Shown: piece after piece, positions 3,291 through 9,233 of the stretch
How the letters are laid out: each line of letters opens with the position of its first letter
Numbering within the stretch: the stretch's first letter is position 1
IMG/VR virus record: IMGVR_UViG_3300043803_000981
Span: 1 to 24,378 of that record
DNA length: 24,378 nt
Source of the DNA: a virus
Strand: one strand, 5' to 3'
Made by a program: the position numbers and the translations under genes
The notes under the pieces: model-generated
The model's input: only the letters and a program-made list of their open reading frames with translations
Database searches by the model: none
Told to the model about the DNA's origin: nothing

Positions 3291-4768
3291 TGGGAACGAC
3301 AAATGATAGAACCATGGAGAAGCCCGGTGATGTCATCATTGATGATATCACCCTGAAGTCATACAACGGCTTTGAGATGAGCCTCAAGGGTCTGTTCCAG
3401 AACTTCATCCTGTACGAGGACATCTTCTCCAACTACATGACGGGGTCCATCACCATCGTTGACTCGATGAACCTGGTGAAGAACTTCCCCATCATCGGGG
3501 CAGAGACCCTCCGCATCTCGTATTTCACACCGAACTACTTGGATGGGGCGGAGGATCACAAGCCGGTGACCCTGAACTTCCGCACCTTCAAGGTGTCCAA
3601 GTACATAGAGACGGCTCAGGAATCGGCACTCATGGTTACCATTGAGTTCATGTCCGAGCAGGGCATCAAGAGCATGCAGACCAAGGTCTCCAAGGCATAC
3701 ACCAACATGTCGGTCGCCGACATGATCCGCAGCATAGACGAGGAGTACCTTGCGAGCGACAACACCGACTACTCGGATGTGTATTCCGCCATCACATCCG
3801 GTGCTGCGACTGGTATACTCAGTCCCGTCCCCGGTGGGACGATCTTGGGTGCGGCTACCGCAGGGCTGTACGCATACAGGAATCGCGAGGAGAAGATACC
3901 GCTTCGGACATTCACTCCAACCTTTGACCTGCGGTCATATGTCATACCTTATTGGAGTCCCCTATACGCCATCAACTGGCTGTGCCATAGGGCAAGATCC
4001 GAGACGGACACCCGCAAGTGCGACTTCGTGTTCTACGAAAACTCCGAAGGATTTCACTTCACTTCCTTGAGCGACCTCAAGGAGATGGGCAAGTTGCCGA
4101 ACAGGTATCACCACTACACCAATTACCCCGAAGGCTTCCGAAACAAGGAGTCCGAGAGGATGTTGGCGACCGAGATGCGGAATGTCATCTTCGCCAAGAT
4201 ACAGGACTTTTCGGACAAGGCAAAGCAGCAGGCATTGGGAATGCTGGCATCGTCCATCTATACCCACGACCTCACGACCAAGAAATGGACGCTTGATACC
4301 TTTAGTTACGACGACCAGTTTGACAGCAACATGGCGTTGAACAAGAATCCGATCATGCCGCGAGGCAAGAACAACTACTCCACGGCACCGTACGCCCACA
4401 TGAAGATGTACCCCAACTCCTCGTTCACCACGAAGACAGGGATCACCGTCCACGATCCTAACGAGACGGTGCTGAAGAGGCAGTCGTTGCTGAACCAGAT
4501 GAACTCCATGAACATGGTGGTTGAAGTATGGGGCGACACTACCGTCAAGGTCGGCAGCGTGGTGAAATACACTCCCGTTGTGAAGGAGTTCAATAAGAAG
4601 ATTGACAAGTGGGAAGACGATTACCTAAAGGGCTTCTATCTCATCACGGCGATACGCCATGTGATCACCGATCGTGAGCACAAGATGACGATGACCCTCT
4701 CGCGGGACTCGTTCGCCGAGCCGCTGGCCGACCAGAAGAAGGCACAACTTCAGTTGGGAGAACAATGA
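3290..4768 (+). CDS. 27: Baseplate hub protein gp27
   Basis: A 492-residue protein matching the gp27/gpD-type hub that forms a torus with the gp5 spike. Residues about 38-81 (NFILYEDIFSNYMTGSITIVDS, then PIIGAETLRISYFTP) are the tube-like first domain. Residues about 217-264 contain YWSPLYAINWLCHRA and FVFYENSEGFHFTSL, equivalent to the T4 segments around FVFVWQDIMG. The C-terminal part from about 400 (LNQMNSMNMVVEVWGDTTVKVG, YLKGFYLITAIRHVI) is the second beta domain. It is about 100 residues longer than T4 gp27 (391). One addition is a Gly/Ala-rich hydrophobic stretch at about 168-197 that T4 lacks. It is co-translated with gp53 (TAATG) and gp5 (ATGA), as expected for hub partners. Confidence 0.85.
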   Translation: MGTTNDRTMEKPGDVIIDDITLKSYNGFEMSLKGLFQNFILYEDIFSNYMTGSITIVDSMNLVKNFPIIGAETLRISYFTPNYLDGAEDHKPVTLNFRTFKVSKYIETAQESALMVTIEFMSEQGIKSMQTKVSKAYTNMSVADMIRSIDEEYLASDNTDYSDVYSAITSGAATGILSPVPGGTILGAATAGLYAYRNREEKIPLRTFTPTFDLRSYVIPYWSPLYAINWLCHRARSETDTRKCDFVFYENSEGFHFTSLSDLKEMGKLPNRYHHYTNYPEGFRNKESERMLATEMRNVIFAKIQDFSDKAKQQALGMLASSIYTHDLTTKKWTLDTFSYDDQFDSNMALNKNPIMPRGKNNYSTAPYAHMKMYPNSSFTTKTGITVHDPNETVLKRQSLLNQMNSMNMVVEVWGDTTVKVGSVVKYTPVVKEFNKKIDKWEDDYLKGFYLITAIRHVITDREHKMTMTLSRDSFAEPLADQKKAQLQLGEQ

Positions 4769-6306
4769 GCGTCCATAATCATGAACCTATGAAGCCGGAC
4801 TTCATGGGAAAGAACGGGTTCGTGTGGTGGCAAGGAGTCGTTGAGGACATCTACGATCCTCTTCGTCTCGGGCGTGTGCGTGTGCGTGTGCTTGGGTGGC
4901 ATACGGATGACAAGGCGGCGATCCCCACGGACAGCCTTCCTTGGGCTGCGGTTCTCATGCCCGCGAACAACCCGTTCGTCAGCGGCAAGGGATGGTCTCC
5001 CAACGGGCTGCTACAAGGTTGCTGGGTGGTGGGGTTCTTCCGCGATGGCTTGAACGGACAGGAGCCAGTGGTCATGGGGACCATCGGTGGCATCAACACC
5101 ATCACCATCCCCCTGCCGTCTCCGGAGGACATGCCGTTCGGATATGGGTTCGGCGGTGCGTTCGCCGACTATGCCGCCAACATGATAAAGCAGAGGGAGA
5201 AAGAGATCGTCTCGGTTCTGGACAAGACCAAGAACGACGCGGGTCTCAAGCCCAACCAGTTGCCGCAGAATCCCGTGATTGACACAAGCCGTGGGTTCGC
5301 CGATCCGGAGGGTGTCTATCCCATGGTCTCACGCATGGGTGAGCCTGACACCAACCGTCTCGCACGCGGGGAGAATGTCCAGTACACAATCGTCAACAAG
5401 AAAAACAACAGCCGCGTATCCACCGAGACCGCCATCGCGGGATACTGGGCCGAGCCGGTGTCAGCATATGCCGCCAAGTACCCATTCAACCATGTCTATG
5501 AGTCGCCCGCTGGACATGTGATTGAATATGACGATACGCCCGGCTCAGAGCGGCTTCATTGGTATCACTGCTCCGGCACATTCAACGAGGTCCATCCCAA
5601 GGGCGGCGAGGTCCACAAGGTCGTTGGCAACGCATGGGACATCACCATGAACGACAAGATGATCTATGTGAAGGGCAATGCCTCGTTCAACGCTGGCAAG
5701 ACCCTCAAGATCATGATGGGCAAGGATCTGGACATAGAGGTGGCGGGCGATGTCAAGATGCTGGTGAACGGCAACATGACCACCGATGTCAAGGGCAATT
5801 TCCTACAGAAGATCAAGGGGTCTTACACGACGGTCAGCGAGGGACCGATGGTTCTCATATCCCCCCGCATTGACCTCAACCCCGAGGGAGAGCAGCCGTC
5901 AGCCGTTGACACTCTCATGGACAAGGCACGCGATCTGGTCAATGGATTGATCGGTTGGTTCTCCACGCCGGAGACCACGGTGGAGACAACCGCGGAGCAG
6001 CCGCCGGTCCAGCCTCCGGTTGAGGAGTTCAAGGAGGCTCCGCAGGAAGGGACACCACAAGATAAACCTGATCCAGATGAACCGGCAACATTTGATCAGA
6101 TCAAGGCAAGATACGGCATGCTGACCGATGAATCGGCACAATACCTTGAGTTGTTGATCATACCGATGAACAAGGTTGATTCGGTCGTTTCCAGCACAAA
6201 GGGGTCTTTGCGGAGTGATTTCAACGATCCAGACAAGCAACTTCTCGGTCTTACAAGAACGGCCAAGAGACAAGGACTTGACACATTTGAAGATTTTGAA
6301 GGATAA
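4765..6306 (+). CDS. 5: Baseplate hub spike gp5, lysozyme domain absent, C-terminally extended
   Basis: A 513-residue central spike. Residues about 18-118 are the OB-fold: WWQGVVEDIYDPLRLGRVRV, LPWAAVLMPANNP and VVMGTIGGI match T4 gp5 closely. The T4 lysozyme domain (about 170 residues) is missing, as in cyanophages; residues about 120-230 form a short linker with GFADPEGVYP. The gp5C part begins near 235 (YESPAGHVIEYDDTPGSERL, GTFNEVHPKGGEVHKVVGNAWDI) and continues as an octapeptide-type beta-helix (VKGN, VAGD, VNGN and VKGN turns) to about 370. Then comes an odd tail: a helix, a Pro/Glu-rich linker at about 406-442 and a 70-residue C-terminal domain encoded in more A/T-rich DNA. The gene overlaps gp27 by 4 bases. 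Confidence 0.92.
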   Translation: MSVHNHEPMKPDFMGKNGFVWWQGVVEDIYDPLRLGRVRVRVLGWHTDDKAAIPTDSLPWAAVLMPANNPFVSGKGWSPNGLLQGCWVVGFFRDGLNGQEPVVMGTIGGINTITIPLPSPEDMPFGYGFGGAFADYAANMIKQREKEIVSVLDKTKNDAGLKPNQLPQNPVIDTSRGFADPEGVYPMVSRMGEPDTNRLARGENVQYTIVNKKNNSRVSTETAIAGYWAEPVSAYAAKYPFNHVYESPAGHVIEYDDTPGSERLHWYHCSGTFNEVHPKGGEVHKVVGNAWDITMNDKMIYVKGNASFNAGKTLKIMMGKDLDIEVAGDVKMLVNGNMTTDVKGNFLQKIKGSYTTVSEGPMVLISPRIDLNPEGEQPSAVDTLMDKARDLVNGLIGWFSTPETTVETTAEQPPVQPPVEEFKEAPQEGTPQDKPDPDEPATFDQIKARYGMLTDESAQYLELLIIPMNKVDSVVSSTKGSLRSDFNDPDKQLLGLTRTAKRQGLDTFEDFEG

Positions 6307-6321
6307 AGAAGGGGGTGATAG

Positions 6322-7095
6322 ATGAGCGTAGCACTTATCAACGCATCAAAGGCGGCGGCGAACTACAAGACGGCGAATGCCGTCAGCCAGTCCGGTCAAA
6401 CGCCCCCAAACTCGTCAACAGCGACGAATGCCAAGAAGTCAACCGGCTCCGGCAAGATGTACAGCGTGGAGAGCATTGAGGGTTACCAGAGTGCATCAAG
6501 CCTGAACTCGTACGCGGCGTTGTCGGCACAGCAGAAGGCGACGGCAAGCACCAGCGAGGATGTCAGCATCAAGGGAGCGATTGCTGTCCCCGTGGCGACG
6601 GACTTCTCGGAGTCCAAGAAGAGCCTGAACGAAGTTGCGGCTACAAAAGGCCAGTTGGCTTCCGTCCCCGACATTGATGTCTGCTCTTTCTTGAGCAAGA
6701 TACCGCCCATCAAGATTGACCTGAATCCGGACTTGGGTGGAGGAAATCAGTTGTCCGATTTGATCGGTGAGATCAACGGGATCACGCTCAGGGGCATGCA
6801 GATGGTATCGGATGCCATCGTCGGGGTGGTCGGTGGGATCGGTGCCGCCATCGGTGACACCGCCAAGGCAATAGATGATGCAATACCGGACATCAAATGT
6901 GGTTCGCCTCCACCCGAGATCACCGTGGACCTTCCTATACCTACGGCTTCGGCCCTGACCCAACCACCTGTTCCCGCTGCTCCGACACAGGTAGTTCCCG
7001 ATGTAGAGTACGGCACGGACCCACAGATCACAATTGAAAGTCCGGATGTGACCGTCAAGAGCATAGACGATGTCTTGGATGCGGGTGAATTCTGA
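6322..7095 (+). CDS. Unrecognised low-complexity protein in the hub region
   Basis: A 257-residue protein that I do not recognise. The N-terminal 110 residues are rich in Ala, Ser, Thr, Lys and Gly and look disordered. A middle part has VPDIDVCSFLSKIPPIKIDL. Residues about 159-180 are a Gly/Ile/Ala/Val stretch (SDAIVGVVGGIGAAIG) that could be a membrane-active or buried helix, followed by DIKCGSPPPE and a Pro-rich segment to the C-terminus (KSIDDVLDAGEF). Two cysteines flank the hydrophobic stretch. A strong ribosome binding site (AGGGGGTG) lies about 5 bases before the ATG. Lying between the gp5 spike and the PAAR tip, it probably belongs to the central needle or is a tail-tip chaperone (inference). 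The stop overlaps the next gene by one base. Confidence 0.7.
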   Translation: MSVALINASKAAANYKTANAVSQSGQTPPNSSTATNAKKSTGSGKMYSVESIEGYQSASSLNSYAALSAQQKATASTSEDVSIKGAIAVPVATDFSESKKSLNEVAATKGQLASVPDIDVCSFLSKIPPIKIDLNPDLGGGNQLSDLIGEINGITLRGMQMVSDAIVGVVGGIGAAIGDTAKAIDDAIPDIKCGSPPPEITVDLPIPTASALTQPPVPAAPTQVVPDVEYGTDPQITIESPDVTVKSIDDVLDAGEF

Positions 7096-7925
7096 TGGTA
7101 CAGATGGTAGGCACACAACCAATTGATTTTTATTACCCAGATGGGTTGAGCGGTCAAGCCATAACTCCATCCAACAACAACGAGGGGTGCATAGATTGGA
7201 TTACGGAAAGAATAATAAACTATCGCTACGCAGGCGCAGACGCACAGAGACCCATATTTGAGAACACCCTCATCGGCAAGAACCGGACGGGTTGCGACAG
7301 CCCGTCGCTCCGTGTGAGTGCCGAATACAGGAGACAACTGGGACCGAACAACCCATCCACCGGCAGGAGGACAACGCAGACCGTCTGCTCCGGAGTTGGT
7401 CCGATAAAGTATGCCTACATCACGGGTAAGTTGCCGGACACCCTGACCTTCAACATTGATACAGGAAGTTTTGAGGGGTGCATTCCGGAACTGGACACCT
7501 TCCTCGGCAAGGATGTCCTCGGCTCGGAGATGACACCACCTCGGACCGCGAGCGGAGCGGACGGTCTGGCGGTCTCTGACTACGGCTTCAACTACGGCGA
7601 GCAGGAGCCTCAGAGATATGACGAGACAAACTACGCGAGCGGGGGGTCAAGTGCTCTGTATTTGGGAGGATTTGGTACTGCAATCTCCATTCCGTTCATT
7701 GCAAGGGCGTTTGATTCGTCCGATCCGTACGGCAACTATATTGATGGGGAGTTCGTACTGAATGTCCTGAACAATTGGTCATCCGATCGTGACTCGCTCG
7801 TCCTAAATATCAGGAATCAGATGTACCTTGACGGTAAACCAGTGACGAACGCCGAATATCTTAACGGCATGAAGGCTAAGGGTTACTTCAACGACATCGG
7901 GACATGTACTTGCGACGAGGAGTGA
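7095..7925 (+). CDS. Hub-region protein with an Ig/cadherin-like (He_PIG-type) segment
   Basis: A 276-residue protein. It contains PIKYAYITGKLPDTLTFNIDTGSFEGCIPE (residues about 103-132, quoted in parts: KLPDTLTFNIDTG then FEGCIPE), which fits the pattern LPxGLTxxxxTGxxxG of putative Ig (He_PIG) domains, and later FIARAFDSSDPYGNYIDGEF plus VLNNWSSDRD, which fits the closing strands of the same fold and the NNWSxDRD motif I associate with cyanophage structural proteins. The two halves are separated by about 70 residues of Gly/Ser-rich sequence. Several cysteines are spread through it, ending in CTCDEE. It is translationally coupled to the gene before (TGATG) and sits one base before the PAAR gene, so a role in the spike complex is likely. 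Precise function unknown. Confidence 0.7.
   Translation: MVQMVGTQPIDFYYPDGLSGQAITPSNNNEGCIDWITERIINYRYAGADAQRPIFENTLIGKNRTGCDSPSLRVSAEYRRQLGPNNPSTGRRTTQTVCSGVGPIKYAYITGKLPDTLTFNIDTGSFEGCIPELDTFLGKDVLGSEMTPPRTASGADGLAVSDYGFNYGEQEPQRYDETNYASGGSSALYLGGFGTAISIPFIARAFDSSDPYGNYIDGEFVLNVLNNWSSDRDSLVLNIRNQMYLDGKPVTNAEYLNGMKAKGYFNDIGTCTCDEE
7803..7809 (+). promoter_or_regulatory. Possible internal late promoter box CTAAATA
   Basis: CTAAATA lies inside the 3' part of the Ig-like gene, 118 bases before the PAAR start. It could give extra late transcription of PAAR and the genes after it. Fewer than one copy per strand is expected by chance, and this one lies within a codon run, so support is weak. Confidence 0.3.
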
Positions 7926-7926
7926 T

Positions 7927-8214
7927 ATGCCCGCAGCCCACCGAAAAGCCGATCTATGCACAGGACACGGATGCTTCCCGCCAAGACGAAATCTTGACGG
8001 CTCGTCCAATGTGTTCGTCAACAGCCTTGGTTGGCACCTGAAGGGTGGGAAGTGGGCAACTCATTGCTGTGGAGATTCATGTCATCAGAGCACTACTGCG
8101 GAGGGTTCCTCTTCCGTTTTTGTAAACAGCAAGCCAGCGACCAGAATCGGTGATCCGGTTGACTGCAATTCGGCATGCGGTAGAGGAAGCCCAAATGTAT
8201 TCGCAGGAGGTTGA
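7927..8214 (+). CDS. 5.4: PAAR-repeat spike tip (gp5.4)
   Basis: A 95-residue PAAR protein, the length expected for T4 gp5.4 (97). The sharp metal-stabilised cone sits on the distal end of the spike and first touches the membrane. Three repeats of the signature hairpin are visible: SSNVFVN at 26-32, SSSVFVN at 61-67 and SPNVFAGG at 88-95, plus the family RIGDPV at 73-78. Potential metal ligands are C11, H14, C16, H46, C47, C48, C52, H53, C80 and C84, which is cysteine-richer than the three-His one-Cys site of T4. The ATG follows GAGGAG by 5-6 bases. The gene ends just before the membrane-anchored GAF-like gene, with an AGGAGG for the latter inside its last codons. Confidence 0.92.
   Translation: MPAAHRKADLCTGHGCFPPRRNLDGSSNVFVNSLGWHLKGGKWATHCCGDSCHQSTTAEGSSSVFVNSKPATRIGDPVDCNSACGRGSPNVFAGG
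8205..8210 (+). promoter_or_regulatory. Ribosome binding site AGGAGG that fixes the start at 8220
   Basis: AGGAGG, a full Shine-Dalgarno sequence, lies 9 bases before ATG 8220 but directly touches TTG 8211. The spacing therefore supports the ATG as the start of the following gene over the longer TTG reading. Confidence 0.75.
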
Positions 8215-8219
8215 CTGAG

Positions 8220-8849
8220 ATGATTTTAGGAATCGCACCGGAGTCGTGGTTCAATATCGGGTTCGGAATTGCCTGTCTTGCCGCCGGTCTGTTGGGCGGA
8301 TGGGGATGGAAGGGCAAGGTGGACAAAAAGGGAGAAGAACGCGAGAAGGAGGATGCCTCCATCAGCAAGTCCGACTACCAGACGAGGCACAGCAATGTCC
8401 ATGACCTGCTGACCACCCTGAGAGTTGAGACCGGAGCCACCCGTGCCAAGATCGGTCACTTCCACAACGGCGGCAAGTTCCTTGACGGAAGCCCCATGAA
8501 GAAGTTCAGCATCACCCATGAGTCGTGCGTGCGGGGGGTTCCCTATGACGGACCGCAGTTGCAGAACATTCATGTGACCCTCTTCTGGGACATGATTGAG
8601 AACATGCGGGACAATGGGGGCGGTCTTCACAAGACTGATGACATGCGGGACGGTTACTTCCGTTCCTACAACAAGTCCAACGACACCGTCGCATACGGCA
8701 TCCTGCCGATCATCAAACAAGACCTGTACATAGGGTTCATCATGCTGGAGTGGTTTGACGATCAGACCCCTCCACACGACGATCCCAGTTTCGTAAGCAC
8801 TTTCCGACAGATGCGGGATTACATTGAGTTGGAACTCGCATTGAGGTGA
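8220..8849 (+). CDS. Membrane-anchored GAF-like protein of unknown function
   Basis: A 209-residue protein. Residues about 8-28 (SWFNIGFGIACLAAGLLGG) form one strong membrane segment, followed by a charged stretch (KGKVDKKGEEREKED) that by the positive-inside rule would lie in the cytoplasm. The remainder reads like a GAF-type sensor fold: VHDLLTTLRVETGATRAKIGHFHNGGKFLDG, quoted in part as LLTTLRVETGATRAKIGHFHNG, then FSITHESCVRGVP, AYGILPIIKQDLYIGFIMLEW. I recall similar membrane-plus-GAF-like proteins in assorted phages, all without a known role. Here it sits between the PAAR tip and gp25, coupled to both. It could be a virion protein inserted in the host membrane during injection, or a host-membrane protein made late in infection. 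No catalytic motif is visible. Confidence 0.75.
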   Translation: MILGIAPESWFNIGFGIACLAAGLLGGWGWKGKVDKKGEEREKEDASISKSDYQTRHSNVHDLLTTLRVETGATRAKIGHFHNGGKFLDGSPMKKFSITHESCVRGVPYDGPQLQNIHVTLFWDMIENMRDNGGGLHKTDDMRDGYFRSYNKSNDTVAYGILPIIKQDLYIGFIMLEWFDDQTPPHDDPSFVSTFRQMRDYIELELALR

Positions 8850-8852
8850 CCT

Positions 8853-9233
8853 ATGGCTAAGTTCGTGGATCTGGACATCAACTTTGACCGCAACCCCTTC
8901 ACGGGAGATGTCGTGGTCCGCACCGAAGAGGAAGCGGTCAAGAGATCGCTTCGCAACCTGCTCCTCTACAAGAGAGGGGAGAAGCCTTTCCATCCCGAAA
9001 TCTCCTCTGGACTGATTGACCTTCTGTTTGAGCCTGTTGATCCCATCATGGTCATGGAACTGCGGAACCGCATCACCCACATGATCGCCAGATACGAACC
9101 CCGCATCAAGGAAGCCGAGGTAGATGTGGCACATGTGATAGATAAGAACGAGATCCGCGTGACCATCAAGTTCGCGATGTTCAACATCCAGCGGGTGTTC
9201 AGCACAACCATTACCCTCCAGAGGATGAGATGA
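8853..9233 (+). CDS. 25: Baseplate wedge protein gp25
   Basis: A 126-residue homologue of T4 gp25 (132), the conserved sheath-initiator wedge protein also present in type VI secretion (TssE). It keeps the family's SLRNLLLYKRGEKPFHPEISSGL segment (in part: RNLLLYKRGEKPF), LFEPVD, the EPR triad at YEPRI (residues about 89-93) that engages the gp6/gp53 core, and a final beta strand. The start ATG has GAGGTGA a few bases upstream, in the tail of the GAF-like gene. It overlaps gp6 by ATGA. All expected features are intact. Confidence 0.95.
   Translation: MAKFVDLDINFDRNPFTGDVVVRTEEEAVKRSLRNLLLYKRGEKPFHPEISSGLIDLLFEPVDPIMVMELRNRITHMIARYEPRIKEAEVDVAHVIDKNEIRVTIKFAMFNIQRVFSTTITLQRMR

Follow-up and report, generated by a model that had tools for sequence, protein, structure and literature searches.

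A membrane-anchored GAF-fold protein encoded beside phage baseplate genes, a tentative candidate for a role in lysis timing

Few of the genes with which T4-like phages lyse aquatic bacteria are known. GAF domains are typical ligand-binding sensors, and a literature search of incomplete coverage found no paper that describes one in either a holin or a virion protein. Among the described systems closest to the protein that we report here is holin T of phage T4, together with the other class III holins (PF11031; PDB 6PX4, 6PSK, 6PXE). Our protein shares with them a length of about 210-220 amino acids, a single membrane helix and a linker helix that extends into a C-terminal GAF-fold domain. T lies in the membrane with its N-terminus inside and its C-terminus outside. 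It needs an N-terminal cytoplasmic amphipathic helix for hole formation, while its globular domain has been argued to serve regulation (PMC12162936). A T5-like member of the class adjoins an endolysin gene, as do homologues of our protein in Leptospira and Nonlabens phages.

The window that we analysed is a whole virus record of 24,378 bases, and the open reading frame under study, at 8220-8849, is called X throughout. The window holds a T4-like baseplate operon that runs from the tube cap through a gp53-like wedge gene, the hub, the gp5 spike, two unassigned genes, PAAR, X and gp25 to gp6 and more wedge and fibre genes. The original prediction had put a membrane-anchored, GAF-like protein between PAAR and gp25, and this placement is borne out, with five bases from the PAAR stop to the start of X and three from the end of X to gp25:

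7927..8214, + strand: PAAR spike-tip gene, upstream neighbour of X (PF05488, E 4e-9; phrog_281, E 1e-27)
8205..8210, + strand: Shine-Dalgarno-like AGGAGG, read from the sequence, 9 bases 5' of the X ATG and within the 3' end of the PAAR gene
8220..8849, + strand: X, ATG start, 209 amino acids, predicted to cross the membrane once and to carry its GAF-fold domain at the C-terminus
8853..9233, + strand: gp25 baseplate wedge gene, downstream neighbour of X (PF04965, E 3e-13)

The reading frame is not due to chance, since 80 listed viral contigs encode close relatives of X (33-92% identity) at the same position. Two features of the genes 5' of X may be recorded here. A 276-residue gene at 7095-7925, immediately 5' of PAAR, has no Pfam or PHROG match, yet nearly all close relatives keep it at this position. 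Further upstream, at 4765-7095, a gp5 of 513 residues is followed by an unassigned gene of 257 residues; in the distant relatives L081 and L057 gp5 has 716-742 residues and the 257-residue gene has no match, so that a gene split or fusion is possible.

X has one hydrophobic segment, at about residues 11-29, with about ten residues ahead of it and a charged stretch, predicted to be a linker helix, behind it, in agreement with the original prediction. The AlphaFold2 model, built with 53 sequences, has a mean pLDDT of 86.7 and comprises helix 7-46, helix 52-71 and an alpha/beta domain at 75-208; its elements from residue 52 onwards are H52-71, E75-82, E95-103, H119-130, E136-138, H146-153, E158-166, E169-178 and H190-208. 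The parts of X are placed as follows:

8250..8306, + strand: membrane helix, residues 11-29, from hydropathy and charge count; part of model helix 7-46
8307..8357, + strand: charged linker helix, residues 30-46, from sequence and model
8373..8846, + strand: predicted GAF-fold domain, residues 52-209, model pLDDT mostly >90, matching phytochrome GAF domains at Z scores of up to 17.1
8463..8522, + strand: conserved motif H82-N-G-G-K ... G90 ... S97-x-T-x-E101, spanning the end of strand 1, the loop after it and strand 2, from a 26-member alignment

A fold search had been proposed, for residues 45-209, as a check on the GAF-like assignment; residues 52-209, compared with solved structures, returned phytochrome and cyanobacteriochrome GAF domains (Foldseek E down to 4e-8), the best match being a phytochrome GAF domain with a Z score of 17.1 and an rmsd of 2.7 Å over 144 residues. 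By this model, residues 52-209 are predicted to adopt the GAF alpha/beta fold, despite the absence of any Pfam match, including to PF01590 (GAF), for the window protein; five of the 26 family members do match PF01590 weakly (best E 5e-4), and a PDB sequence search with X gave no match. The likeness to the phytochrome and cyanobacteriochrome GAF domains (PF01590) is one of fold, whereas X has neither their chromophore-domain partners nor a kinase or cyclase output, and neither Pfam nor the model revealed any output domain besides the GAF fold. Interferon-gamma matches obtained in profile searches covered only about 44 residues and were taken as chance.

The FHNG motif that had been described as conserved-looking proved to be conserved across the family: H82, N83 and G90 are invariant in 26 of 26 members, the most distant of which is 14% identical to the window protein, and G84, G85, S97 and E101 are kept in 23-25 of the 26. 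The HNGG motif region is conserved far above the rest of the GAF-fold domain, and its near-invariance over strand 1, loop and strand 2 suggests a functional site, beyond a role in the scaffold.

No lysine or arginine precedes the membrane helix of X and six occur in the 20 residues that follow it, so that the positive-inside rule predicts the N-terminus outside and the C-terminus inside; these residues are commoner after than before the helix in all of the 157 X proteins compared. The GAF-fold domain is thereby predicted to lie in the cytoplasm, and we infer that X inserts into the membrane, in this orientation, and oligomerises. Such an arrangement would also be expected if X had no connection with lysis and were a cytosolic ligand sensor or a host-takeover factor tethered to the membrane; binding of a small molecule or of a host protein by the GAF pocket and the HNGG motif would then change the physiology of the host membrane. 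The ligand-binding habit of GAF domains, the selective conservation of the motif and the predicted cytosolic domain of all 157 members argue for this possibility, and the gene contexts of X, which differ between branches, agree with it; however, X has no output domain, an absence that we count in favour of a role in lysis timing, and a sensor of this kind leaves unexplained the adjacency of X homologues to endolysin genes in three different cassettes described below. We regard it as unlikely, though not negligibly so.

Sequence comparison shows X to be one branch of a broad phage family without assigned function, as the original prediction had stated. PHROGs 14038, 30125 and 38864, all lacking an assigned function, are sequence homologues of X in which the X branch is poorly represented: X itself matches PHROGs 14038 and 30125 weakly but significantly over residues 55-109 (E 1.5e-5 and 6.8e-5), other branches match strongly, and the family HMM recovers members of PHROGs 14038 and 30125 at 46-80 bits. 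A second clade, found with a protein of Microcystis phage Mel-JY01, comprises 107 relatives and lies in a different late region, and further branches occur in Ma-LMM01-like Microcystis phages, the crAss-like phage cr127_1, Leptospira phage LE1, Leptospira plasmid-prophages and Nonlabens phage P12024S. Two scans of 84,980 genomes with narrow patterns gave no cellular homologue, and within the plasmid collection homologues were confined to the Leptospira plasmid-prophages. Phage S-RSM4 also has a gene between its PAAR and gp25 genes, but that gene is unrelated to X.

A survey of gene neighbourhoods, another of the checks proposed, found the order PAAR-X-gp25 in all of the 80 closest contigs in which both flanks are present. 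This fixed position, together with a ribosome-binding site inside PAAR, is consistent with X being a virion or baseplate-associated protein, either a needle chaperone or a protein delivered to the inner membrane during injection; the homologue of phage cr127_1, which adjoins tail ring protein 2, and that of Mel-JY01, which lies between the capsid gene and phoH, point the same way. We also took a sample of 80 contigs anchored on gp6 instead of X, some of which are truncated, so that the count of X is a lower bound: X is present in at least 19 of the 80, where it precedes gp25 in 18 cases and PAAR in the remaining one. Many of these contigs have gp25 directly after PAAR, without X, and cultured relatives have other small genes at this position, so X is not present wherever the baseplate operon is. 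Since the same baseplate genes occur without X in more distant T4-like phages, we consider X a stable accessory and not a core part of the baseplate; the earlier phrase "needle operon" is right about where the gene lies, but the part in the needle that it implied does not follow, as relatives with these baseplate genes do without X. Placement in a structural operon is a property of the window clade, and other branches have X away from tail-structure genes or in lysis cassettes. A virion or baseplate role is, in our estimation, quite improbable. Two individual loci of the gp6-based comparison may be described: at L336:770-1483 X lies upstream of PAAR, with one ORF between them, instead of between PAAR and gp25, and at L270:3305-3999 PAAR is followed directly by gp25, without X, in a contig whose gp6 shares 45% identity with the gp6 of the X-carrying L081.

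An accessory distribution of this kind, with many contigs having the same baseplate genes and no X, could also be that of a moron of late operons whose product, a membrane protein, serves superinfection exclusion or anti-defence. Two very weak matches can be cited for this, one of a structural relative, P12002L_0031 of a Polaribacter phage, to a SieA-like PHROG (E 1.4e-3), and one of a single family member to SieB (E 0.12). Both are near chance, however, and the stable single position of X in the window clade would be unusual for a moron, so that we judge this explanation rather improbable. P12002L_0031, whose gene lies beside an M15 peptidase gene, is a structural neighbour of X but not a sequence homologue, and for that reason we have not counted it as evidence of homology.

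The first of two pointers to lysis is the company kept by X homologues in other branches. In Leptospira phage LE1 the homologue is gp48, which scores 45.9 bits on the family HMM and whose gene overlaps a downstream M23 endolysin gene by four bases (ATGA), and in the Leptospira plasmid-prophages lcp3 and pLiSL21 the homologue (79.6 bits) overlaps a downstream M15-type endolysin gene by four bases as well. The M23 and M15-type enzymes are unrelated, with no significant blastp match, whereas the X homologues beside them are related (E 2e-17), as would be expected for a lysis cassette in which the enzymes have been exchanged. The paper on LE3 and LE4 had reported that holin or lysin genes were not identifiable in the phages analysed there (PMC6078989). 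The third cassette is that of the Nonlabens phage, in which gp12 (89 bits), annotated only as hypothetical, is followed by an endolysin gene (phrog_894, E 5e-45) and then by a predicted holin gene (phrog_3427, E 3e-31):

L345:5845-7428: P12024S three-gene cassette gp12-gp14, X homologue, endolysin and holin

The presence of a separate predicted holin two genes downstream of gp12 favours a partner role for the X homologue in that phage.

Against a link to lysis, Pfam and PHROG scans of the genes neighbouring X in the window gave no endolysin, and annotation places none directly beside X in the crAss-like phage, the Ma-LMM01 group, Mel-JY01 or the window clade. Ten long X-carrying records were without the lysozyme, M15, M23 and amidase families, and only SLT domains were found, in small proteins encoded away from X, several of which have an N-terminal hydrophobic segment:

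L346 (G003:36407-36709): small SLT-domain protein
L347 (G001:132602-132907): small SLT-domain protein
L348: small SLT-domain protein
L349: small SLT-domain protein
L350: small SLT-domain protein

These putative transglycosylases are candidates for exported endolysins; given their own hydrophobic segment and their separate location, a large-hole holin may not be needed in the phages concerned. In ten long X-carrying records no T-holin gene was found with PF11031, so X is not an obvious duplicate of T.

We compared X with T itself, using a model of the T4 gene:

L179:3001-3654: T4 t gene, modelled; periplasmic domain compared with GAF domains, Z 14.6

In a fold search the T model returned its own crystal structures (Z 28) and next phytochrome GAF domains at the Z score just given: by structure comparison, the periplasmic domain of T4 holin T is a GAF fold. 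Among viral models, T retrieved largely the same phage proteins with a membrane helix and a GAF domain as X did, and the search with X returned T-type holins with E values of 1e-5 to 3e-5; the T4 holin crystal structures were absent among the 50 solved-structure matches listed for X, an absence to which we attach no weight. The order membrane helix, linker helix, globular domain is the same in the two models, and the GAF fold common to both proteins is solved for T and predicted for X. X differs from T in its opposite predicted topology and in lacking the N-terminal amphipathic helix, and the HNGG motif, invariant in the X family, is absent from T.

Sequence homology between X and the T holins was considered and rejected. 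The PF11031 profile does not match X, and hhalign of the X profile against PF11031 was not significant (E 0.018, probability 2.5%). With the family HMM, 34 of 76 T holins reached at least 4 bits, against 5 of 1,203 other phage ORFs and none of 304 shuffled or reversed T sequences; as there is redundancy among the T sequences, and as generic GAF domains from the PDB score equally high, we take this enrichment to speak for a shared fold but not for common descent of X and T in particular. We do not class X as a T holin because it departs from T in three defining features, namely the PF11031 profile, the topology and the N-terminal helix, two of these by prediction or profile only.

From the neighbours of its homologues and the architecture shared with T, we hypothesize that X is a lysis-timing membrane protein, either a holin or a regulator of one, a reading that is the best supported of those considered, though tentative, and to which we give somewhat less than an even chance; under it, X would also influence lysis in the phage to which the window belongs. 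Of the roles that the original prediction had listed, late lysis timing is the one to have gained from the endolysin-adjacent homologues and the likeness to the T4 holin in architecture and fold, and no specific support emerged for injection, host-state sensing, superinfection exclusion or anti-defence. As a lysis-timing protein, X would be produced late, at the same time as the virion proteins, and build up in the inner membrane. Its assembly there would be controlled by the GAF-fold domain, whether by associating with itself, with a partner protein or with a ligand. Once this control is lifted, either the membrane helices would cluster, so that the membrane is depolarised or opened, or a separate holin would be set free, and in both cases the cell-wall enzyme of the phage could then act. 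If the SLT proteins are endolysins exported without a large hole, X would act by membrane depolarisation or regulation.

A bolder form of the hypothesis is that X represents a new and very widespread class of phage lysis protein, bitopic and with a cytosolic GAF-fold sensor, in which the time of lysis is set by a host metabolite bound at HNGG, and that this class is the topologically inverted counterpart of the T4 holin with its periplasmic GAF fold; taken jointly, these two propositions seem to us improbable. With the X family, well over 100 contigs of uncultured phages, as well as several phages in culture, gain a concrete lysis candidate. An uncharacterised family is linked to lysis cassettes and, through the common GAF fold, to the T4 holin, and this leads to the testable prediction that a metabolite-sensing fold may regulate phage lysis from inside the cell.
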